DNA from: Irineochytrium annulatum
Taxonomy: Eukaryota; Chytridiomycota; Chytridiomycetes; Chytridiales; Chytridiaceae
Assembly: GCA_027600665.1 (NCBI GenBank)
Contig: JADGJL010000325.1
Location: 2,574 to 25,168 of the forward strand
Reading direction: 5' to 3'
Length of the DNA stretch: 22,595 nucleotides
How positions within the stretch are numbered: position 1 is the first letter of the stretch; each line of letters opens with the position of its first letter. The notes beneath the pieces were generated by a model that had not been told where the DNA came from, searched no databases, and worked only from the letters and a program-made list of their open reading frames with translations. Made by a program: the position numbers and the translations under genes. Shown here piece by piece: positions 2,391 to 18,489 of the stretch.

Positions 2391-2957
2391 TCACAAAATC
2401 TCCCGCAATGCCTCGACCTGCTTCTTCAACCGATTCCCGATGTCGATTAACAGTCCTAATGATGAAAGAAAGCGCGTGTAAGGCCAAAGCAGAAGTGCCT
2501 TTGGGAACTACCACAAGCCTACCTGAATTCGACGAAGAAGGTGCCACGAGCGAGAGGATGAGGGGGTCGTAGCTGAACTGGACAATCATGAACTCATCAA
2601 ACACGCTCATGATCATCTTCGTCCGTCCCAGGCCAATTTTTCCCGCCTGTGGTAGAAGTCATTAGGACCCTCCGAACAAAAAAAAAAGAAAATGCCTGGT
2701 CGCTTGCAACGCTGAACGTCGCACTCAGCGCCGCCTGAAGAACCTTCCCGGGCAGATTCGGGCTTTCCGCTAGATAATCGGTTAATTTCGCAGGAAATGT
2801 GACGCCGCACCTTTAACCAAGATCACCCCATCTCGATCCGTCACCAAAACAGCCAAGAGATCGTCTGTCCTACAAAGATTTTAGCACCAACCGATGAGAT
2901 CCGTGAACGGCCTGCTCACCGTTCCAACAACGACGCGAATAGCTGTTCCAAGTCCAT
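2391..2957 (-). CDS. LAMTOR3: LAMTOR3 (MP1/p14-partner) Ragulator subunit, 119 aa, 5 exons
   Basis: Exons are 2957-2920, 2869-2811, 2769-2696, 2646-2523 and 2455-2391; all phases agree and give 119 residues (human LAMTOR3 has 124). Recognisable landmarks in order are [12 protein letters not shown] near residues 19-33 (human VVSDRDGVPVIKV), [14 protein letters not shown] before the mid-protein strand, [20 protein letters not shown] (human YQVVQFNRLPLVVSFIA), then [20 protein letters not shown] and a terminal helix. This is a roadblock/LC7 fold. LAMTOR3 pairs with LAMTOR2 in Ragulator, which anchors Rag GTPases and TORC1 signalling (and a MAPK scaffold) on late endosomes or lysosomes. Intron 3 (2695-2647, 49 bp) has a GC donor but an ideal CCTAATGAC branch site and CAG acceptor. 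The gene is divergent from UBA2. Confidence 0.92.
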
Positions 2958-3015
2958 TTTTTGGACTTCGACAAACTTTCAAGCCGCCTGTCACGAACTG
3001 CTCCAAATCGCTTGT
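2958..3015. promoter_or_regulatory. 58-bp bidirectional spacer between LAMTOR3 and UBA2 start codons
   Basis: The two ATGs (2957 on -, 3016 on +) are back to back with only 58 bp between them. Both 5' leaders and core promoters must lie in this spacer or overlap the opposite gene. I see no TATA box. Confidence 0.6.
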
Positions 3016-5515
3016 ATGTCCGACATGTCGCAATCCACGCCTTCGCAGCGGCCGCCGCCCCGCGACGCGGCCCTGGCGGCCGTTTTTGGGGCCGTAGATT
3101 TCGCGCGGCTCACGGCCGCTCGCGTGCTGATGGTCGGGGCTGGGGGAATTGGGTGCGAGCTGTTGAAGAATCTGGTGTTGAGCGGCTTCAGAACCATTCA
3201 CGTCGTATGTGCCAACCCATCTTTGGGACAGATATTACTGCGAGGGAAATGCTGAGTGCTGCATGGAATAGGTCGACTTGGACACGATCGACCTCTCCAA
3301 CCTGAACCGACAGTTTTTGTTCCAGAGACAGCATGTGAAGAAGTCGAAGGCACACGTCGCTAAGGAGGCGGCCCTTAGATTCAACCCGGCCGCGGACGTC
3401 ACGTCATACCACGAGAGCATCTTCGCGCCCGAGTTTAGCGTCTCGTGGTTTGCTTCGTTCGACATTGGTGAGGGCCTTTCTGCGTTCGTTGGGTGAGTCG
3501 TTTTAACAAAAGAATAGTTCTTAACGCATTAGATAACCTGCGTAAGTATTAGTTCGCAATTTACTGTTGCCTTCGGTGCTCTCTGACTTCTTTGCGTTTC
3601 CCTCAATAGAGGCACGACGACATGTAAATCTCATGTGCCTAGCCGCGAACGTCCCGGTAAGTGCCTGTGTTAAGGGTCGATTTATCCTGACCTGTGCGTC
3701 ATAAAAGCTCGTCGAATCTGGAACGGCCGGCTACTTTGGTCAGGTGTCGGTGCATCAGAAGGTAGCTTGTCTTGAAAACAGCGCGTTACGATGATGGTTC
3801 TCACGCGGTTCTGTAAAGAATTTGACGCACTGCTACGAATGTGAGCCCAAACCGACGCCTAAGACGTTTCCCGTCTGCACGATTCGGAGCACGCCGTCGG
3901 CGCCGATACACTGTATCGTCTGGGCCAAAAACTACCTGTTCAAGTGAGCAATGTTATTAAGGCATTTTAGCTATGCGGGCAGTATTACTCATCCACTTTC
4001 CATAGCAAGCTTTTTGGGGAAGATGACGAGGACTCGGAGATAAAGGAAGGGGCGGATGAAGATAAAGGTGGCTTTCTACTTCTTTTGTGCGTCTATGTGC
4101 GACATGTTCATCCGTATGAAATACAGAGGAGCTTGAGAAGCTAAAGAGGGAGGCGAACGAGCTGAAGGTGCTTCGGAACGCCATAGGGAACGATGGGTTC
4201 GGCCGGAGCGTGCTGGAGAAGATCTACGTCGCCGACGTCGAGCGCCTCGTTTCCATGACAGACATGTGGAAGTTCCGGAAGCCGCCGACGCCGCTCGCAC
4301 TGGGAACGAAGGAACTGGGCGGTGGGGGCGTGAAGTTTGAGAACGACATCAAGCGGAATCATAACGTTTGGTCCGTGAAGGAGAACTTGAATGTTTTCTT
4401 GGATAGGTAAGTCCTCTCCTCAAATACATTGGAACGGAGTAGACGCCTGACAACGTCTACAGTGCGAAGCTTCTGGGCGACCGTCTTCTCCAACTCCGGT
4501 TAGACGACGCGTCCGCCGCCCTATCGTTCGATAAGGACGACGAGGAGGTTATGGACTTCATCACGGCCGCTACGAACCTCCGCGCTCATGTATTTGGAAT
4601 CGAGCTTCTTAGCCGGTTTAAGGCGAAGGGTATGCAATATTTTTAAGGATGTCGGGCAGAGCATTGTTGTGTATCGGTGTTAATTTCCTAACGTTGTGAC
4701 ATTTGTAGAAATGGCAGGCAACATCATTCCCGCGATCGCGACGACGAACGCTATTATCGCGGGTCTGATCGTCTTAGAGGCCTTCAAGATCCTTGCCGGC
4801 CGGTGGAAGGATTGCCAGAATGTAAGGTTCCCAATTCTTCTTCCACTGCAACGGTAACCTTTTTCCATGCCATTACAGACGTTCCTCGTTTACGGCGGGA
4901 AGCGGTCACAGCTCATTAGCGGCGAGAAGCCGCCCGACAAAGCCGCCGATGAATGCGCCGTCTGCAGGAACGGATTTCTTTCTCTCACCGCTGACGTCGA
5001 CAAGCTCACTCTCGGCGCGTTTGTAAAGGACATTCTAAAGTCGGATAAAAGTCTCGGGTTGAAGGGGGAGATTTCGTTAAGCGAGGGCGGTAGGTAATAT
5101 GATCAGGCGATTCAGACGTTGCGGGAAGTCTTCGCTAACTTGTCTTTACGGTGTTTTTTAAGATTATTGTATGACGACGATTTCGACGACTCGGCCGAGA
5201 TGACGCTCTCGGCACTGGGCGTCACGCACGGGAAAAACCTTATTGTTATTCATGACGGCGACGACGACGCATCAAACTTCAACATCAACTTCTTCATTGA
5301 GCACAAGTGCGTCAAGTTCAATTCATTTAACGCCAGCGATATTTACGCTAAATGTACAATGATTTTGCAGAAACGGGATATCTCCAATGTTATCGGGTGA
5401 CCGGACTTTTCCTCCACGTCCTAAACGTCCGACCGAGGACGAGCAGGACGGCGGGCCTGACGCGCAGAAGCAGAAGGTCGCGCTGGAGGATGATAGCGAT
5501 ATCGAGATTTTGTAA
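3016..5515 (+). CDS. UBA2: SUMO-activating enzyme E1 catalytic subunit Uba2, 586 aa, 13 exons
   Basis: Exons: 3016-3204, 3272-3467, 3518-3541, 3610-3656, 3708-3761, 3819-3943, 4006-4067, 4127-4406, 4463-4629, 4709-4821, 4879-5093, 5163-5306, 5371-5515. All introns are GT-AG, 50-79 bp, and phases agree. Uba2 pairs with Aos1 to adenylate SUMO and carry it as a thioester to Ubc9 in the nucleus. Motifs: nucleotide-binding [11 protein letters not shown] (about 40-50), [29 protein letters not shown], catalytic Cys190 in FPVCTIR, zinc pairs C175/C178 and C445/C448, [23 protein letters not shown], and a C-terminal ubiquitin-fold domain. The tail ends DDSDIEIL, a SUMO-interacting-type motif. Length fits the family (about 590-640). 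An in-frame ATG at 3025 is an alternative start. Exon 3 is only 24 nt and encodes the LNALDN core. Confidence 0.97.
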
Positions 5516-5565: not shown

Positions 5566-6786
5566 TCACTTAAGCGCAGCCTTGATGTCTATTAAATCGT
5601 AAAAGTAAATTATATCGGTCGCAATCCACAGCGCAACAAAAAAAATTATTGGACTCACTCTCAATGACGCTCTCATACGCCGCAACGGCCGGCGAATCCT
5701 TATACACATCCATGAACGACTCCCCGTTGTCGCACGAAACTCCGATCCTCGGATCCAGCGGTATACTCCCCAAAAACATCACTCCCATCTCCTTCGCCAT
5801 GGCTCTCGCGCCCCCGGAACTCGCAGGGAAGATCTCGGCCGTCGTGTGGCACTTCGGGCAGGCGAACGAAGCCATGTTCTCGACTACGCCGAGGATGGGA
5901 ACCCCAACCTTCCGGCAAAAATTAATCTCCTTGCGAACGTCCTGGAGGGAGACTTCTTGGGGCGTGGTGATGAGGACTGCGCCGTCGATGCCGGCGTCGG
6001 CGAGGTAGGTCACGACCGAGAGGTGCTCGTCGGAGGTGCCGGGGGGTGTGTCGACGACGAGGAAATCGAGGTCGCCCCAGTCGACATCTTTTAGAAATTG
6101 CTTGATCATGCCTATAAAAGAAAAGTCAAGGCCCAGTCGGCGATGAGGGTCCAACCTCCACACCCATCAAAGCTACTGCTACGTGAGACACTCACCGTTC
6201 TTCTTCGGCCCTCTCCAAATAACGGCGTCGTCTTTGCTCGATAGCAAAAACCCGATCGACATCACGGCCAGATTGTCGCTCACGTACACCGGCACCCAAC
6301 CCGTACTACTCTGGTGTATAGGCTCTCCCGCCACGCCCGCCATATTGGGCAACGAAGGCCCGCAGATATCGATGTCCAAAATGCCCACCTAACCATCCGT
6401 TCAGTAATCGCAATCAACCCTCCACGAACGACAGCTGATTTACCTGCGAATTCTCATCTCTCGACAGACAAAACCCGAGATTCGTCGTAAACGTGCTCTT
6501 CCCAACGCCACCCTTCCCGCTCAACACCAGGATCTTCCGCTTCACGTTCTGAAACCGCTCCGCGATCACGGCCACAGCCGGGTCGGGGCCTTTCGGGGTC
6601 GTGGCGCATATCGTCTGATTCGGGCAGCCCTCGCAGGAGGAGGCTGTTCTCAGTCGAAGGTGAGAAACAATGAATCCCCAGGCCAGAGGGGTCAGATGAT
6701 CGCTCACCTTTCCCGGCTTGCTCAGACTCTGGGCCGACGCAGTGCTGGTCGGAGGGCGGGGTGATCTCCTGCGTGACGTCCGTCAT
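5566..6786 (-). CDS. NBP35: Cytosolic Fe-S scaffold P-loop NTPase Nbp35/NUBP1, 315 aa, 5 exons
   Basis: Exons: 6786-6708, 6643-6444, 6388-6196, 6111-5659, 5588-5566; phases agree. Nbp35 with Cfd1 assembles [4Fe-4S] clusters in the cytosol for transfer to nuclear and cytosolic apoproteins. The N-terminal ferredoxin-like motif has C16, C30, C33 and C39 with spacing 13-2-5, exactly the Nbp35/NUBP1 pattern that Cfd1 lacks. The deviant Walker [10 protein letters not shown] is at 69-77, with [46 protein letters not shown] following, and the bridging CPKC pair at C242/C245. The last intron (70 bp) is easily missed: reading through it replaces the true ending VIENIKAALK with a spurious tail. The 3' end faces UBA2 with 50 bp between stop codons. 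Yeast and human proteins are about 320-328 residues. Confidence 0.97.
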
Positions 6787-6961: not shown

Positions 6962-9264
6962 TCACCCCGCCTTCTCACCAATGGCTTTCTTCAAGAGGTC
7001 CAATGCCCCCATATTAAGTACAGGCCCCTAAAAATAATCAGCGTGTGTAGCCTGAAATTGGTCTTACCTCCCCATCGGAATCCTCCAGCTCAATCTCGCT
7101 ATCATCCTCGTCGTCCACATCTATCGCCCTGGAGCTCGGTGACAGGCCTTTATTCGGTGTCCCCATCCCCGGGCCCTTGGCGAATGACACCTTTCCCAGC
7201 GTCAGCGCGTCGTCTCGCTTCCCGGGCGTCAGGGACAGGGTCAACCGCCTTCCCGCGGGCCTGACTTTCGTCGGGGTGGTGCCACGAGGACCATCGGCGG
7301 GCTCGCCGTATCGGTTTCGCAACGGTGAGGCAGTCGTGCTTTTCGACGGGCTCGGGTCGGCTTCGGTGACAACTTCCTTCCCGGTGGTAGGGTTGAAGCC
7401 AAGCTTACGGATGGCGTCGGCGTTAAAGACGGTTTTGTCGGCATCCCCGGCTTACAATGAAAAGTGTGAGAACCTTTGCACAGGAGCTGCCACAACAAGT
7501 ACCTAACGGCAAGCCTCTTGCTGCTCTAACGTACTTTGCGCCCTTGCTGTTTGTCTGCAACAGCAGCGCCCTAAAGTCGTGCTCAGACATGCTTGACGCC
7601 AGCCAGTACATACAACTCAGGCGTGACCAGCTTTGAGCCGTCACTCTTTGTGCAAGCCTCTAAGAGCTTCGCCTCCCTCCCGCCCTTTGTGGAAATTGTC
7701 GTGCCATCGGGCAGCATATAAGAGCCGTGTCCCGCTTCGGGCGGCTTAACTGGGCCGACATTCTTGGTCGGATCATTCATACATAGTACGGCATTGCTGT
7801 GATACGAAAGCAGTTCGTGTTTGCGTCGGTGATGTGCAAAAAAGCTCGCACCTCACTCGGAACTCGGGGCGCTTTTGACGGGACAACTGAAACGCGGCGA
7901 AGGCGTGGAATTCGCAGTATTGGGCGTGTCTCCTTGTAAAAGTAAACCAGAATGATAATCAACAAAAAACTTAAAGAGGCGCGGAAGTAGTACACCAACC
8001 TGTCAATCAAAGTCCCGCATTGAACACCGTGCGCAACGTTTTTGCACTTGATGCAGTCGAGGGACATCCCGATGGGCATCAATTTCCCGGGATGATCGAT
8101 GCTGAGACCCGGTGACGCGTCATGCTAGATTAACACGACCGCAGTCATCAAGAAATCAATATAATCAACAGTAAATCATCGTAACCTCACCTCCGTCGGC
8201 CTCAAAACTTTCGCATTTAACACCGCTATCACGGTCCCCATGGCGACCCCGCCGTGCTTCTCCAATGACTTTCCATACAAAAACATATTGACAACCTCAC
8301 CCAACAGATTTGCTAGTCGGATAATCCTGTACCCATTGCCCGTGCTGGACCTCAGCTGCTCGGACCTGCCCGAGACGACCCCCATGGTAACCCAGTCCCC
8401 TGGCGCGTCCCCGTAAAACTGTAGCTCGCGGAGGCTAGCGAGGGGCTTGAAGTCGCGCCCGGTCATGTGCCGGACCATTTGAGCGTTCGTGACCGAGCGG
8501 TTCCTGCGGTAGACTTAGTAGTGCGGACAGGTTGCGTCAGTGTGAAAGAGAACACACTTCAGCCTCAGCTGGGAGAACATTTCAACGTTCTCGTCCGCGG
8601 GAAGAGATGCCGCGGCCTCGTCGGCGTCGAACCCCTGTGCCGCAGCTAAATGAGACGACAATGTTGGCGAAGTGGTGATGAAAAGGTGAAGCATAGAAGA
8701 CTCACTCGGCGGCCTAGAGTCCGACCAAGTCGTCGTCATCATCTCTCCCTTCGCCTGCGCGATCTTATATGCCCTCCGCTTATCTACCACCATCTTCGTG
8801 AAGCTGCCTTTGTTGCCCCCCGCGCCTTCCTCCTTCACAGTCGCCATCGGCGACTCCGGTGACACCGGTCGCGGCATTTTGGGCCCGGATCTGCTCAGCA
8901 AGGAAGTGGCTGTGGTGTGCTGCAACGCGCCGCGCGACCGCCTGGTGGCCTTTGAGCTCGGTTCCGCCGCCGACGATGCGATGGGCGGGGGTCGGCGCTG
9001 TTGCTGCTGTTCGGCCTGTTGCGCAGCCCTGAAGCGATCCAGGGCCGCGTGGACGCCGGCGGCGGGGTTGGCGGCCCGCGGGCGATCAAGCCTGGGCTGC
9101 TCGATGACGGGTTTTGGTTCCGGCGGGCCGTAGAAGGAGGAGGAGGGACCGGGATTAGAGGAAACGTGGTGGACCTTCTGGCGCTTCGGGGTCGGCGGCG
9201 TCGGGCCCGGCTCGGCTGGGGCCGCAATCGCGGGCTCCATGTCCGCCGTCGCTGAACCGGACAT
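6962..9264 (-). CDS. MCM10: DNA replication initiation factor Mcm10, 621 aa, 9 exons
   Basis: Exons: 9264-8706, 8645-8558, 8503-8191, 8124-8000, 7932-7852, 7796-7614, 7570-7503, 7450-7068, 7027-6962. Mcm10 binds CMG helicase, single-stranded DNA and polymerase alpha at origins. The N-terminal 186 residues are disordered (Pro/Ala/Gln-rich). The OB-fold runs about 200-320 (FSQLRLKNRSV, DWVTMGVV, YRIIRLANL, VNMFLYGKS, GTVIAVLNAKVLRP). GLSIDHPGKLMPIG leads into a CCCH zinc finger at C347, C356, C368 and H371, followed by LSRQKRPEF. Downstream are LLLQTNSKGAKYVRAA and FNADAIRKLGFNP, also family hallmarks, then an acidic region and a short C-terminal helix. Introns are 40-66 bp; one has a textbook CTACTAAG branch site. 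I start at 9264 (A at -3); an upstream in-frame ATG at 9351 would add 29 unconserved residues. The exon 6-7 join (43-bp intron) and 7-8 join (52 bp) are the least certain. Confidence 0.92.
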
Positions 9265-9351
9265 GTTTGACCGCCACTGTTGGAAGCTCCAGACTTGGTT
9301 GTTGTGCTTCGTGGTTGCTCTGTGCTGCCCTGTCGAACACAAATAAATCAT

Positions 9352-9687
9352 CTCTAAGTCATAGGTAAGAAATGAACCCGTTTGTCGGGAAAGTTGGCTC
9401 GGCCGCCATGACGGCGGTCTCTAAGGTGAACGCCTAGCGACTGCCCTTATTTACAAAGGTAACAATCTGACTGGCCCTCTGAACTGCGCGTCGTAGCTCA
9501 CGAGGAAGAGCCGGCTTTTAGCTCAGCCATGAAGAAAAATCGAGTTGGTGAGACATGTTTATTGAGCGTTACAAGCATTTAAAATCGGAGCAGATGGTTC
9601 ACAAAAGAAGAAGATAATGAGAAAGCAGAAAATATAAAGAAAAATGAAGGATGCATATCAAAAAGAAGCCATCGGCCGTCCTATCCT
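9352..9687. other. Intergenic region between MCM10 5' end and the secreted modular protein
   Basis: AT-rich with short A-runs and no convincing coding segment. It carries the MCM10 upstream region and the 3' end of the next - strand gene, including an AATAAA at 9563-9558. Confidence 0.5.
9558..9563 (-). terminator. Poly(A) signal of the secreted two-module protein gene
   Basis: AATAAA on the - strand, about 125 bp downstream of the stop codon at 9688. It lies in an AT-rich 3' region. Confidence 0.45.
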
Positions 9688-10439
9688 TCACTTCCTGTAG
9701 CCGTATCCGTAGTCAGCGGCCGTCACGCACGGGCTCTGGTGGTACTGGAGCCAAGGGTCGACGCTGCACTCGGTGCCGGCCGCGCACCTCATCGCGACCC
9801 ACTCGCCGTGATCGCACTGGTAGAAGACCGCGCTCTGGCCGGACTCGTCGCACTTGTAGTTCTGGCCTTTCCACGAGCCGGCGGAGGTCGAGCAGTCACC
9901 CTCGTTGAGGGGGCGTAGCTGGGCTTTGAGGGCGTGTAGCTAGGCTTCAAGGGAGTGTAGCTCGGCGTGTAGCTCGGCTTGGCGGGCGTGTACGAGGGCT
10001 TTGAGGGAGGGTAGCTCGGCTTCAAGGGAGTGTAGCTCGGCGTGTAGCTCGGCTTGGCTGGCGTGTAAGAAGGCTTCGAAGGAGTGTAGGACGGCTTCTT
10101 CGGCGCGTACGTGGGAGTGTAGGCGGGCCTCCTCGGGCTGTAAGCCGGCGGCTCCGGCGCGTATCCGCCGTGCGAAGGGTGGTAGTCGGCCACACAAGGG
10201 CTTTGGCGGTACTGGAGCCACGGCTCGACGTCGCAGACGGTGCCAGCAGCGCAGGGCATGCGAACCCACTTGCCATGGTCGCATTGGTAGAAGACGGTCA
10301 CGTCACCGGACGCATCGCACTTGTAGTTTTGGCCTTGGAAGGAGCCACTGGAGGTCGAGCAGTCGCGCTCGTAGGCGTACGACTCTGCGACGGCGACGGC
10401 CGAGATTGATGCGACGGTGAGGAGGGTCGAGAAGAGCAT
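9688..10439 (-). CDS. Secreted protein with two Cys-rich (CBM19-like?) modules and a Pro/Tyr repeat linker; apparent 1-nt frameshift
   Basis: The start at 10439 gives a clean signal peptide (MLFSTLLTVASISAVAVA). Module 1 and module 2 share the same six-cysteine pattern and near-identical blocks: DCST, GQNYKCD, FYQCDHG, CAAGT, PWLQY and QSPCV. The shape (aromatic-Cys, W, PCxxGTxC) resembles family 19 chitin-binding modules, so binding to chitin or another wall glycan is my inference. Between them lies a linker of KPSYTP-type repeats. Module 2 is not in frame with the linker. The two frames meet at a run of five C on the - strand (9913-9909), and one extra base there would make the protein continuous. 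The second frame runs from about 9908 to TGA at 9690-9688, ending in GYGYRK. Either this is a recent null allele or an assembly/sequencing deletion. A 38-bp intron could also restore frame but would delete conserved module residues. Confidence 0.75.
9918..10140 (-). repeat. Tandem repeat encoding the KPSYTP linker
   Basis: A short Pro-Ser-Tyr-Thr-Pro unit is repeated many times, and it is organised into a larger 75-bp (25-residue) unit present twice. For example the block beginning gcttcaagggagtgtagctc recurs 75 bp apart (ttcaa at 9946 and 10021). Such linkers separate binding modules in secreted wall proteins and vary in length between strains. Confidence 0.8.
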
Positions 10440-10504
10440 TGTTATAAAGGTCGTTGGTTGTTGCTGAAGTTGCTGTTGATGACTGTTAGGGGACTTCAAC
10501 AGTG

Positions 10505-10512
10505 CTTAAATA
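10505..10512 (-). promoter_or_regulatory. TATA-like element of the secreted two-module protein gene
   Basis: TATTTAAG on the - strand, 66-73 bp before the ATG at 10439. This is the same spacing as the TATA box of the other secreted-peptide gene (1943-1950). Confidence 0.5.
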
Positions 10513-11399: not shown

Positions 11400-11946
11400 T
11401 GCTGTATAAGTTGATGAGTACTTTCAACTTTTTTGCTTAAAAGTACGGCGTGACCTGTAGTCGGAGGCGATCCGACCGTATAATTCTGCGTCGCAATACG
11501 GTCTTCGGGTGGGCGACGTGTGGTTTGCATCTGATTCACATGTTCCATGGGCATCTCCAGTGATTATCGACCCAGCGAGGGTGGCTCGATCGTTGCGATT
11601 CACGCACGAGGAACTTGTTCCTTAGCCTGCCGGAAGTCATTGCATGAAAGACGAAAGGAATGTAATGGCCTTTTTTTTAAAGCTTTAGGGAAAATTTAAA
11701 AACCTTGCAGCTGATCGAAGACAAAGCTATTGAACAGCATTAAGTTTGTAGTGCTTATGTTTCTCCATGTATGTTCATGCTCTCTATATGCTAAAGTGAA
11801 GCAAACATTCTAGCTTCAGACTAAAGGGGCCAAAAGCGTGCATCCAACGCCACAACTCCCTACCACCTCGACGAAGTGTCCCTGACGAAAACCTTCAATG
11901 CTCCGACCACCAACTCTCCTCGAACCGTCAACCCTGTTTCAGAGTC
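11400..11946. other. Intergenic region downstream of SCAR/WAVE
   Basis: Mixed-composition DNA between the 3' ends of two convergent genes, turning AT-rich after about 11650. I see no coding stretch, tRNA or repeat. Confidence 0.5.
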
Positions 11947-13867
11947 CTAATCCCATCCGTCACTCGCGTCCGACTTCCCACTCTCCTCGCTGTCGCTCAT
12001 CTCGAGCGCCACCCTTCTCATTAAGATCGCCGCCACGTTCATGTCCCCCGCGCTGCTCGCGGCTCCGGGAGCCTTCTTCCCACCAGGACCCGGCTTCATC
12101 TCCACCTTCCGGAGTTGAAACTATATCCATAAAGTTAAGTGGCTGCTCGAGCATATGAAGCAAAACTGAGTGTTACCTGGCCCTGACGGATCTCGCTCAA
12201 CAACCCGGACCTCTCCGGTCCGGACGCCGAAGGCCCATTCCGACTAAGCTGGGTCGCTTTCCTTCCCCCGCCGTCCTTCTGCAATAACTTCGTCACCGGC
12301 CTTGCCGCCACATCCTCATCCTTAAACAGCCCCGCGGGCGGTGCAGGCGGAGGAGGAGGCGGTGGCGGTGGTGCGGCGTGTTTCACAGTCGGCGCCCGCG
12401 CGGGCGATATGGACCGTGCGGGCGACTCGCTCCGAGCGGGTGATTCTGCCCGCGCAGGGGTTTCGACGCGGGTGGGCGATTCCGCGCGAACCTGTGCGGG
12501 CGGAGGAGGTGGTGGCGGCGGAGGCGCGACGGCCGTCGGTGTGGTGGGTCCCGGCTGTGCCACGGCATGATTGGATCTCGACGCCGGATGGTTGTGCTGA
12601 TGCTGAAGCGACCGCGCGCTGCCGCCGACGGTGGCCGCGCCGACCGACGACACGGTGTGATCGCTCCGGAAGGACTCCCTTGAGTGTGATTTCGGAATTC
12701 CGTAGCTGTGGCCGTGTGCAGGGATCGGGAGCGTCGCGGCGGATGGGAAGCTGTTATTGTTGGCAACGAGGGAGTGAAGGGAGGCCTGGGTCGAGATAGA
12801 GGGAATGGAGGGGCGTCGGGAGGGGGAGGAAGGGCGATCAAGGGAGTAATTTGTGCCGGTGAAGCCGATGACCTCGCCGTCGGAGTTATACCGCTTAATT
12901 TCGAGGTCGGGAGCCTGGGGCGCTGGTCGAGCTGGTCGAGGCTATCGAGGCATCAGCTTAACATGTCTACGTTGCAAAGGACCAGAGGGTACTAACCACC
13001 TTCGCCTCCCGATTCCGCCGTCTCGCAACCCGCATCGCCCTCTTTTCGTCGTGCTCTTTTTGCATGTCGGTTCTCCACTCCTCCTCAAAAAGCTGCGGAT
13101 AAGAGAAGAACTGAAAGGTTCATCCGTTTAGCTCCCCGGGTACGAACCATCGCAGTAACAAAACGTACTCGCATGCACTTCTGCCCGTCCGTGCGGAATA
13201 CATCCAAAAGATGAAGCTCTGGAGCTGGAGCGCACTGCTCGTAAAGCCTCAACACGCTTGGATGCTCGGATGCTTTGGTGAAGAGATTGTTATCGATTGT
13301 CGACTTAGCTCTCCATTCCATCCCTAAAACTCTCCCGATTATCACGGTGCCCAATTTCACAAACCAAAATGAGGAGAGGAAGCCCAAAACGTACGATCGA
13401 CTTCCAACGACTTCAACGGCGGCCGGTCCTCTACCACCCGCTCGACTGTCGGCAGCAGGCTCCTCATGGTCTTCACCCTCTCCTGCACAGATTCAATCCG
13501 ACCGGAGGTTAATGATGCCTTCTCTTCCAATTCTAAAAAATGCAGGATGAGATACAAGTTTACCATTTAGTGCTGAAGCAAAGCGAACTTAACGCGAGTA
13601 CGCTTACCCGAGAAGATTTCATTGACATAGAGCGAAAGCTGGCCAAGCTGATGAAGCTGGCGTTGGAGCTGCATGATCGAGAGCTAATTTGGTGGCCAGC
13701 GGGTCAGTTCTTCGCACATATTCGACCAAATGCCAAACTCTCAGTGCGACATAACCAACCTGCTTCGCCGCCATTTCCTTAGTACTGGTAGTAACAATCT
13801 CGCTGAATCGCTTGCGGGGATCGCTTGGGACCGGCGCCGGCCGCTCAACCTCCCGCTTCGCGAACAT
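11947..13867 (-). CDS. SCAR: SCAR/WAVE actin-nucleation promoting factor, 500 aa, 7 exons
   Basis: Exons: 13867-13760, 13683-13608, 13532-13395, 13323-13169, 13110-12997, 12914-12177, 12120-11947; introns 56-82 bp, phases agree. SCAR/WAVE sits in the WAVE regulatory complex and, when released by Rac, activates Arp2/3 at the plasma membrane to build branched actin. Domains: SCAR homology domain 1 to about 150 (start MFAKREVERP parallels MPLVKRNIEP; MQLQRQLHQLGQLSLYVNEI matches the RQLSSLSKHAEDIF helix; SVQERVKTM; CAPAPELHLLDVFRTDGQ matches the PPLNILTPYRDD segment; FFSYPQLFEEEW matches KFYTDPSYFFDLW). A basic region follows, then two runs of nine prolines (about 328-336 and 379-387) flanking ESPAR/ETPAR repeats, WH2 at 432-449 (SGLLSEIRQGQFQLRKV), C region 470-484 (MNVAAILMRRVALEM) and an acidic tail with W499. 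Length matches animal WAVEs. A possible 5'-leader intron lies at 13930-13887. Confidence 0.93.
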
Positions 13868-15427
13868 GTTGTTGAAGGTATGTCAACTTTTTTAATGAGA
13901 CACTATCCCTGCCAACAATATAGCACTTACCGTCCGCATCCCCCCCAAAAAAAAAAAAAAAGTAATGCGTTCGGAATATCTAAATTGATATCGATGGCAA
14001 GTTTTTTTTTTGTGCCAATATCCCCATAGCTTGTAATATTTGAGCTCCTGCCATCCGGCTTGTACGCCATGCCCTCTCCTCGCCGAAGCCCGGCCGTCAT
14101 CAACGCACACCGGCCCCCAGCGCGCCTTCTCGACGCGTCGCCCGCACTTCGACTCCCTGTCATCGACATGGTCAACTGCCACGACGACTGTGTTCCACGT
14201 CAGCTGGGGTAATTTGAAGCCACTTGGCAAGGCCACAATCTCCGCCAGTCTTCTCATCGTCCGAGGTGTTCGCTCTGGCCGTAACGCTTCTGTGGTCACG
14301 CGCAGATCAACGGTCTTCGGGGTTTCGTGCTTTCATCGTTGAGCAACTGTCTGCTACCGATCCAGGAGCGCTGCTCGGAGGTGTTTCTAAATGGGTTGAG
14401 CTCCACAAAGCCCAGATCGCGGGAAGAAGAAGATCCAGGTACGTGAGCTTGCTAAAAACGTCGCCATTCGCGAAGCGCTTAAACGGGTTTGAGCTAAGTC
14501 TTAATCGCGGGCCGCGAGCATCTCGTCGGGACGCGCTGGTCCGCGGCTTGTGAGCGCCACGAAGTCTCCGGTGCTCCAGTACCCACACGTTAATGACTAC
14601 CAACAGAGGTGCTCGCACGTGGCGAACTTACCACTTGCATTTTCGGTTGGCGCCGTCCGAAAGAAAAGAAGCCTCACCCCATCCCATCAGCGACACACCC
14701 GCGTCCGATCCGCACACCAACCCTGGTATTGCCAGCCTCCAGTCCAGCGCGGCACGCTCCTGTGGCTGGATATGCAGCCCTTCGCTCCGCCCGCGGTTGA
14801 CCACGACTTTTAACACTGAGGAATGAAGGCGAGCGCAACATCGGTCAGTCACCACCTCCCGCAGAAGCTCCACGCGCCTCGGCCGCGGCACAACGTCCCT
14901 ACTCAGAGCCTCTTGCTGACGCGCAAGCCCTCTTCAGAACGCCGCGTCGTCACGCATGGCGGCGCATGAGGCGTGAGTGCGATGTGGTGGGCCGGATGGT
15001 GGAGGTGGCGACGTCAGATATAACCCAGCACGCCGCTCCGCCTGTGTTCGTACACGCCCAGCGCGTATCCAGCTGTGGGATCGCACTGCAGCCACACCAA
15101 AACGGCAGTGACCCAGAATGTCATAAGGCCGGCCTTCCTGGTCGCCTTCCACACCGACTCGCATCCCATATACCGCGCAGAAGCAGGCGCCGGCACAAGC
15201 GGGAGACTTCCGGTCGGATGTCAACTCTTATTCCATCCCTACCAGGGAAGGGCCTTAGTTGTAAGAGGAAAAGCCTCCGTAAACACCAGCACAGAACGGC
15301 GTGAGCCGATCCGGACGTCTTTTTAGACAGTTGTAACATCACACCACCTACCTACCTTTGTACCTTTGTGGAGACTCGAGGTGCCTGGCCTTCCATCCCC
15401 AACCGCACTCCGGATCCCGTTGCTCCC
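13868..15427. other. Unresolved 1.5-kb stretch with coding-like segments on both strands
   Basis: No model could be closed. On the - strand, strong donors occur (GTAAGT after 14631; GTAAGT at 13930), and a frame around 14299-14150 reads ERTPRTMRRLAEIVALPSGF. Preceding - strand segments (FKRFANGDVFSKLT, then NTSEQRSWI) can be spliced to it with 56-bp and 68-bp introns. On the + strand, 14064-14208 has high third-position GC (MPSPRRSPAVINAHRPPARL onward) and could splice through a 40-bp GTAATT...CCAG intron at 14209-14248. Another + frame is open from about 14816 to 15304 (includes QRPYSEPLADAQALFRTPRR). These exclude one another in places. The C7/A15 run at 13940-13961 is non-coding low-complexity DNA. 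Transcript evidence is needed to decide. Confidence 0.4.
15014..15169 (-). CDS. Possible small single-pass membrane protein (51 aa)
   Basis: The ATG at 15169 opens MGCESVWKATRK, followed by a hydrophobic segment AGLMTFWVTAVLVWLQC that could span a membrane, then GYALGVYEHRRSGVLGYI and TGA at 15016-15014. Third-position GC is about 75 percent, above first (about 55) and second (about 47), which is the pattern of genuine genes in this window; the aligned antisense frame shows the reverse. The frame is open upstream to 15196. A donor-like GTTATA just before the stop could splice to a further short exon (ending RVSKRL near 14905), so the ending is uncertain. No family is recognised. Confidence 0.3.
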   Translation of the reverse strand: MGCESVWKATRKAGLMTFWVTAVLVWLQCDPTAGYALGVYEHRRSGVLGYI

Positions 15428-18400
15428 ATGCCGTCGCCGTCGTCATCGCCATTGGCCTCCTTCGAGACCGTGGCGGGGCCTCTTCCTCCCGACGACCATG
15501 CTAAGCCCGACACATCACATCGCTTAACGCCGGACCGGCAGGACCGGACCTCGCCATACAGCCTCCAGCGGATGCGGTCCTTGTCCCTGCAGGCTCAGCT
15601 TTCTACGTCGGCAAAAGCAGACATGGAGGACCGGAGCAGCGGGAGCAGCGCCGGCAGCAGCTCGCAAGGGGTCGCACATCATCCCTCGCCGCCACCGAGC
15701 CCTCCGAAGGGCAAGAAATTCGGCGGCGCCGCGGGGTCGTCATCGTCGAATGTCGCGACGAGCTCTGTCCCCGGATCGCCCTCGACGCCGTCGTCTCCAC
15801 CGACCCCTTCATCAGGGTTCAGATTTCTCATGCGGCGGATGAGCAGTGGGAAGGCGAAGCAGCCGACGGGCCTGGAGTGCGTGGGCCTCTCGTCGGAGCA
15901 GGAGGACGGGATTGTCAGGCAGCAGCCTCCTAGCGCTTTCGGCACCTTTTTTGGGCAGGACGGTGCGCCGCCAACACCGGCCACACCCTCGACACGACCG
16001 GAACTACCGATTTTGCAATCTCATCAGCCGCAGCAGTATCAAGTGCCATCACAACGAGCCTCGCAAGTGACTTCCTCGACCGCTGTCGTGTCTACGCCCG
16101 CGATGACGAGCCCGCTGATAGCGTGGGGGAATTCTATCATCGAATCGATGACGAACTCGATCAACAGCCCGGGGACCTCGAACGGCACCTTGGGCCGGAA
16201 GAAGGTCTCGATCTCAATGTCGATGTCGCCTTCTCTGCCACGTGGTGAATTGACGACATTGGCGGAGGAGCAGCCCGTTGCGCCGACGACGCCGAAGAGT
16301 AAGAAGAAGCAGAGGGAGGAGAAGGAGGGCGGGTTAAGGGAGGAATCGGGATCAAAGAAGAGGGAGAAGCAACGAGAGGATAAGGAGGGAGGACGGGAGA
16401 ATTCGAGCTCAAAGAAGGCGGACAGGCCGAGAGCGAAGTCGGCCGACCCGTCGGCGGGTGGAAAAAGGAAGCCTTTGGCGTCGAGTGTGCTTCCAAAGGG
16501 GCTCACCGGACGGGGGCAAAGCACTACAATTGGGGCGGCGCCGAGCGCTGAGGGGACGGGCGGCGCGGATGTGGCAGTGACAGCTTTCGTGCTCGACGCG
16601 GCGGAAGTGCTGCCGATGGCGGACGCGCGCACGACCTCTCGAACGGACTCGCCCGCCTCCGAGGAGGGGGTGGATGTGGCGGTGGACGTGCTGGCCGGTG
16701 ATGGGCACAAGCGGGTTAAGGAGTTTAAGAGACTTTTCCCGGAGCTGGCGGATGAGGAGACGCTGGTCGAGGATTTTATCTGCGCCGTGCAGCGGCCGCC
16801 GGGGTTGTTAATGGCCCAAGGGCGGATGTATATCTGCTCGACGAGACTGTGCTTTTATTCGTCCGTGTTCGGGGTTTACAAGGTTCGTCAACTGCTTTCA
16901 TTCAACAATATAGTAACCCTTTTATTCTTGGACAGATTTCAATTAAGTTTGAAGATATCGAGTCGTTACAAAAGCACCGATTTATCGGAATCCCGAACGC
17001 GATTTTGGTGGCCGAGGTTGGCAGCCACGACATCGACCGCACGGCCAGTAACGACGCCATGAAGATGTCGGCCGCAGCGTCAACGGCCTCGTCGTCCTCC
17101 GCAACTCTCGTCTCCCCTCAAGCTCAATCGCAATCGCCTCAGCAACAGCAGCATCTTTTCCACAACTTCCTCTCACGCGATGCCGCTTTTGACCTTCTGT
17201 GCCGTAATTGGACTGCATTGGCCCCATCGAAAGCTCTACAGGCGCTTAGAGATCAGTCGTCGCCCTCCCCATACCCTGTCGAGCCGACGCCTCCTTCCGA
17301 AACGCCTCCACCTCCCACCACCACTGTCGCAGGGGACGCCAATGCAACAAGCGGCTCCCGGATACGAAACCGGCGGCCGCGGGACGAGGAATCTATCATC
17401 CAACCGCCGCTGGGCTCTATGGAGGACGATACTGAGAACGAGCGCGAACCGCCAGCTCAGGCCTCCCTCCAACCTCGACCCATGCCGACGCCGACACCAA
17501 TAGTAAAACCAACCGGCTCGTGCCCATGTACCGAGCACGAATCGTGGATGCCCCTTGTGGACGAATCCTTTCCGATCCCGCTCCGCGCCCTCTGGGATCT
17601 CCTCTTTAGCGAGCGCAACGAGTTCCGCCGCCGTTTCCTTGAGGACGACCGACGGTGCCAATCCGTCTCCTTGCCGGGTTGGACGGGCAAGGGGCAGGGC
17701 GCGAGGCGGACGGTCGAGTACGTCATTCCGCTGGGTGTTGTGACTCCGCGGACGAGGGTGGAGGAGACCATTGTTAGGCACAACGAGGGGCTGTGCGTGT
17801 GCGTGCAGAGCCACTCGACGACGCCGCAGGTTTATCTAGGGGATCATTTTCGGACCGCCATGAGGTTCTGCATGAGCGCGATGCCGGGTGGGACGGGGAT
17901 GACCAGGGTGCGCGCGAGCTTTCAGGTCGAATTTGTAAAAAACGTGAGCTTTCTGACGCGAAACTCGATCATCTTTGCCATGAGGCCGAAGATTGTTGAG
18001 TTTCATGATGCGCTGTGTGCCGCTATAAAGGCACATGCGGCGTCGGCGGCCACGGGGGGTTGGCCGGACGAGGTGTCCCGGGATGGGGACGAGGACGAGA
18101 AGGAGGGGATGAGCAGGGGGCATGCTGCGGTTGTGGTTGGGGATGGGACGAAGGAGATTGGGAGGGTGGTGGAGGAGGAGAGGAGGTCTGTGAGAAGGAG
18201 GCGGTCTAGCGCGGCGGCGGAGGCGGCTGCCTCCGCAGGTGCGACCGAGAAGCGGCGATCGGTCTTGGCGTCCGACGGCGGTGCGCGGTCTGTGAGACAA
18301 TCGACGGCTGGGCTCGTCCGCGGGGCAGATCGCGTGGGGAGGTGGACTTTGTGGGTAAGCATGGACGTGCAAATTCTGCTATTATTGTTGATTGCGGTGC

Positions 18401-18489
18401 TCTTGATGGTGTTGGTGAGCGTGCTGTGGACGCTGACGGTGGAGGTGAGGGGCTTGAGGGATGTAATTCAGCTACGGGGTGGCCGGTAG
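15428..18489 (+). CDS. GRAM-VASt domain lipid-transfer protein with C-terminal membrane anchor (Lam/Aster family), 1002 aa
   Basis: Two exons, 15428-16882 and 16936-18489, with a 53-bp phase-0 intron inside the GRAM domain. The start is the first ATG in frame; codons upstream of it to 15368 begin with GTG. Residues 1-425 are disordered and Ser/Pro-rich with a Lys/Glu-rich stretch (KSKKKQREEKEGG). GRAM is at about 426-575: FKRLFPELADEETLVEDFIC, QGRMYICSTRLCFYSSVFG, then FLSRDAAFDLL after a Gln/Ser-rich insertion. VASt is at about 680-855: DESFPIPLRALWDLLF, VEYVIPLG, VEETIVRHN, FQVEFVKNVSFLTRNSI. A hydrophobic helix near 956-987 (ILLLLLIAVLLMVLVSVLWT) is close to the C-terminus. Relatives (yeast Lam/Ltc, animal GRAMD1) move sterol between plasma membrane and ER at contact sites; ER anchoring and sterol cargo are inferred from that. 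Confidence 0.94.

Follow-up and report, generated by a model that had tools for sequence, protein, structure and literature searches.

One gene in the 22,595-nucleotide window (the whole stretch of DNA that was analysed) is almost certainly a genuine, apparently intact SCAR/WAVE gene of a chytrid fungus. SCAR/WAVE helps cells build the branched actin that is used in crawling. The gene runs along the minus strand from 13867 to 11947, from ATG to TAG, and its seven predicted exons, joined from a three-frame translation of positions 11840–14000, fall exactly at the coordinates of the original prediction. All six introns are GT–AG and 55–76 bases long, and the exons together give an uninterrupted reading frame of 509 codons, rather than the 500 residues first proposed (503–509 with alternative splice sites). 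It had also been held that every piece lies in a short exon, which is not so for exon 6: this exon has 765 bases and is visible within a 268-residue open reading frame.

13760..13867, minus strand: exon 1, start methionine and first part of the SCAR homology region (MFAKREVER...), with a 3′ end of CAG followed by gttggt
13608..13683, minus strand: exon 2, SCAR homology domain (LHQLGQLSLYVNEIFS), within the WAVE1 alignment
13395..13532, minus strand: exon 3, SCAR homology domain, within the WAVE1 alignment
13169..13323, minus strand: exon 4, SCAR homology domain (LYEQCAPAPELHLLDVFRTDG), within the WAVE1 alignment
12997..13110, minus strand: exon 5, end of the SCAR homology domain (FFSYPQLFEEEW) and basic region, within the WAVE1 alignment
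12177..12941, minus strand: exon 6, linker, two poly-proline tracts and first half of WH2 (ERSGLLSEIRQGQ)
11947..12120, minus strand: exon 7, remaining half of WH2 (FQLRKVE), then the central motif (NVAAILMRRVALEMSDSEE) and acidic tail to DGWD, stop TAG

The family identity is carried by the N-terminal exons. Among the eight solved-structure (PDB) sequences listed for the protein, the top three are all WAVE1 (7usc_C, E 1.6e-18; 3p8c_D, E 3.1e-18; 4n78_D, E 2.2e-15), a match to the WAVE homology domain that the original prediction had named as its check. The SCAR homology domain of human WAVE1 is matched by residues 40–209 (i-Evalue 7.9e-15 to 7usc_C), an alignment that begins in exon 2 and not in exon 1, and the WH2-C-A tail of 7usc_C is matched after it, in the correct order. 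The remaining five sequences have E-values of 0.13–0.63, and the one that is N-WASP (E 0.3) matches in the tail only. A protein database search with residues 1–220, in which candidates were required to share exact 5-residue words, returned one weak relative, P0001, from 1078 candidates (E 3.8e-5, 25% identity). Residues 1–212 score 44.9 bits against the first 230 residues of P0001 while 200 shuffles reached at most 5.7 bits (0/200 at the observed score), a control that is not independent of selection, given that P0001 was itself found with the same query. P0001 derives from ENA and its N-terminus is SCAR-like; PF27560, the family assigned to it by the database, was not listed for it in the Pfam scan performed here.

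The exon junctions are based on splice consensus and homology, and three alternative sites were tried singly and scored against P0001 (protein length range 503–509). At intron 4 the omission of FFSYPQ lowers the score from 40.2 to 37.2 bits, and the upstream acceptor is therefore preferred; the exon 5 acceptor of the model is also gapless against WAVE1, while the downstream acceptor scores lower against P0001. Exon 2 has a possible second in-frame acceptor 15 bases downstream, and the acceptors of intron 1 are indistinguishable against P0001 (40.2 versus 40.4 bits; 509 or 504 residues), as are the donors of intron 5 (40.2 versus 41.0 bits). Branch-point-like CTNA or TTNA sites, read by eye and without a chance control, start 15–38 bases from the intron end in five of the six introns; no such site is seen over that distance in intron 3.

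Downstream of the homology domain, the elements follow in the order that had been proposed, and the 509-residue protein has them all: homology domain, basic region, poly-proline, WH2, C and acidic tail with its tryptophan. The basic region occupies residues 168–200 (11 K/R and 8 D/E of 33) around a short basic core, KRAMRVARRRNREAK, and the poly-proline region residues 333–402 (26 Pro of 70). The WH2 motif LLSEIRQGQFQLRKV, at residues 444–458, fits a pattern given in the available text of PMC3298513, with a 5-residue linker, and aligns with the WH2 of WAVE1; its Pfam score of 18.4 bits is nonetheless under the cut-off of 23.1, so that the proposed WH2 stands by pattern and alignment but not by the Pfam threshold. 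The central motif and acidic tail are likewise aligned to the WAVE1 tail, with a C-terminus of SDASDGWD, although the tail match as a whole (residues 437–506, i-Evalue 0.063) is weaker than that of the homology domain. Intron 6 splits the WH2 motif, and this is probably why a genome-wide WH2 profile scan did not report the gene and gave a sole match elsewhere, on contig C145 (32.6 bits).

A rival reading would make these exons fragments of WASP or WIP, or divide them between two neighbouring genes that are unrelated, given that WH2, poly-proline and acidic motifs are common to WASP-family proteins, that WASP/Las17 and WIP/verprolin have WH2 and poly-proline in common with this protein, and that the Pfam scan up to E 1 lists WH2 alone for it. 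That origin is exceedingly improbable, as the N-terminal exons match WAVE1 and neither WH1 nor PBD/CRIB is listed in the protein by the same scan. WASP has WH1 and PBD, and WIP has an N-terminal WH2. Candidates for both of these genes sit on other contigs. The WASP candidate on C767 (228–362) has a PBD of 39.7 bits and a WH1 exon of 21.5 bits, just below the cut-off of 22.4, and is truncated by the contig end before any WH2-C-A tail. A PBD profile gave seven matches over the genome, including C767, C810 and C349, and the match on C810 is read as PAK because kinase-like frames follow it. The C145 match was considered as a second SCAR and rejected; it is a WIP/verprolin-like candidate, which we take to be WIP/verprolin by its motif LKKT..NDRSGPIVDG. 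Three further frames at that locus have no Pfam family, and none of them is the WH2 frame.

As a SCAR/WAVE protein, the product shares the order of SCAR homology domain, poly-proline, WH2, C and A with WAVE1/WASF1 of the WAVE regulatory complex (PDB 3p8c, 4n78, 7usc). It differs from WAVE1 in its short basic region, in a linker with SPAR-like repeats (read by eye) and in a WH2 linker of five residues rather than four, and alignment outside the domains is scant. The proteins of Spizellomyces punctatus (SPPG_02302), Batrachochytrium dendrobatidis and Allomyces macrogynus, set alongside by description, belong to the same family and the same fungal grade, and there too WASP co-occurs.

The distribution originally proposed, absence from Dikarya and presence in zoosporic fungi, agrees with several reports, so far as the portions of them available here extend (PMC5461030, PMC3298513, PMC7213984, PMC6733946). 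WAVE was lost in Dikarya and Mucoromycotina and WASH in all fungi then sequenced (Kollmar 2012, PMC3298513); Batrachochytrium and Allomyces have WASP and SCAR together while Dikarya are without SCAR, and Batrachochytrium cells crawl (Fritz-Laylin 2017, PMC5461030); and Spizellomyces, which also crawls, has both genes (PMC7213984). Further excerpts state that only Blastocladiomycota and Chytridiomycota keep WAVE among the fungi analysed (PMC6733946), that WAVE is one of the ancestral families lost within fungi (PMC10406608), that an aphelid and Rozella both have WASP and SCAR/WAVE (PMC6299283), and that early-branching fungi crawl using branched actin (PMC12050087, PMC10846614). SCAR/WAVE is thus already known from Chytridiomycota, Blastocladiomycota, Rozella and an aphelid, and a family member is expected here.

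The genome (26,937,409 bases in 1082 contigs) was searched for the partners that the original prediction had named, of which CYFIP, a BRK1-like gene and Rac were found while NAP1 and ABI were not. A CYFIP gene on C514 gave seven exon matches in the profile search, six of them above the cut-off (best 1.2e-29). The BRK1-like gene on C312 has an E-value of 0.0028 unspliced, and its two joined exons align 39 residues to residues 28–66 of human BRK1 (26.3 bits). Rac is on C302, with GLWDTAGQEDY, and two Cdc42-like genes have GLFDTAGQEDY (C914:4598–5438 and C252:26549–27365), a distinction that presumably holds by the Trp or Phe preceding DTAGQ; the first exons of both Cdc42-like genes are each 93% identical to residues 1–27 of human Rac1. 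ARPC2 of the Arp2/3 complex is on C237 (four matches, best 1.8e-30).

NAP1 was found neither by profile nor by human protein search of the genome, and ABI was not found by profile and gave one weak match to the human protein (C219, E 0.31), both without a positive control; the ABI match was rejected, as it lies within a 412-residue frame read by eye as an SMC-like ATPase. The 14 control genomes gave no match in any completed family profile search, and hence no positive control, and a WH1 profile found nothing over the genome although a WH1 exon is present on C767. Empty genome searches are therefore weak evidence, and those for NAP1 and ABI are no evidence of loss. A reduced WAVE complex, in which SCAR, CYFIP and BRK1 were kept and NAP1 and ABI lost or replaced, is very unlikely. 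The description of this SCAR/WAVE as complete suits the protein, with all of its domains, but not yet the complex, of which NAP1 and ABI were not found.

By analogy with known SCAR/WAVE proteins, we infer complex assembly, regulation by Rac, Arp2/3 activity and a role in crawling. The N-terminal homology domain would take its place in a WAVE regulatory complex alongside CYFIP and BRK1, each represented by a candidate gene, and Rac-GTP would release SCAR/WAVE at the membrane. Once exposed, the WH2-C-A tail would supply Arp2/3 with an actin monomer and initiate branched actin, the most likely use being the pseudopod crawling of wall-less zoospores. Arp2/3-driven crawling is plausible for this chytrid. 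The gene may instead be decaying, or be used outside crawling, for example in endocytosis or sporangium cellularization, and the undetected NAP1 and ABI could be read in that way, as could Rozella, for which the available text of one source describes no filopodia alongside SCAR/WAVE and WASP (PMC6299283). Yet the frame is open, all six introns are GT–AG, the key motifs are retained, and Spizellomyces, a chytrid that crawls, carries both genes in the available account (PMC7213984), and decay or another use is considered unlikely.

With its WASP candidate and its SCAR, this organism would be one more zoosporic fungus with the pair of genes that has been proposed to predict pseudopod crawling, and the pair yields a testable crawling prediction for it. 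The SCAR/WAVE gene itself is ordinary for the lineage and moderately useful as a marker. There is also a lesson for annotation, in that intron-split domains hide such genes.

The surrounding genome looks chytrid by its NBP35 gene, and it has flagellar radial-spoke and Arp2/3 genes. The radial-spoke protein has four matches on C1052 and one on C145 (best 9.5e-51), which suggests a motile flagellum. The NBP35/NUBP1 gene lies at 5570–6782 of the window on the minus strand in at least two exons. A search with residues 18–172 of the exon frame at 5573–6166 (minus strand) passed 7593 proteins, and among the best 120 listed the best match has 76% identity and Rhizoclosmatium globosum, the best named match, 78%, the highest identity among the matches listed. 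The first ten named organisms listed comprise nine chytrids and one blastocladiomycete, Catenaria; the three relatives whose taxonomy was looked up are Chytridiales. In a tree of one 155-residue piece from 37 named proteins, hand-picked from the listed matches, and the window gene, the latter groups with Zopfochytrium, Rhizoclosmatium, Chytriomyces and Physocladia (support 0.84), and this group adjoins Phlyctochytrium and Dinochytrium (support 0.86). The tree is noisy, with chytrids not monophyletic and several deep supports below 0.5. Taken together, NBP35 points to a likely affinity with Chytridiomycota and, tentatively, to a position near Chytridiales.

Other genes in the window were noted in passing. 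On the minus strand, 9789–10505 encodes a protein that combines a chitin-binding CBM19 domain with TPSKPSY-type repeat units (repeats read by eye), and 8176–9420 contains an MCM10 OB-fold exon (8176–8514) and a possible upstream exon without a Pfam match (8515–9420). On the plus strand, GRAM and VASt domains occur in two overlapping frames at 15305–18489 that are probably one gene, which we take to be a Lam-type sterol transporter, and 2803–5400 has a ThiF match and a UAE_UbL match under its cut-off and is probably the gene of the SUMO-activating enzyme UBA2, in exons.
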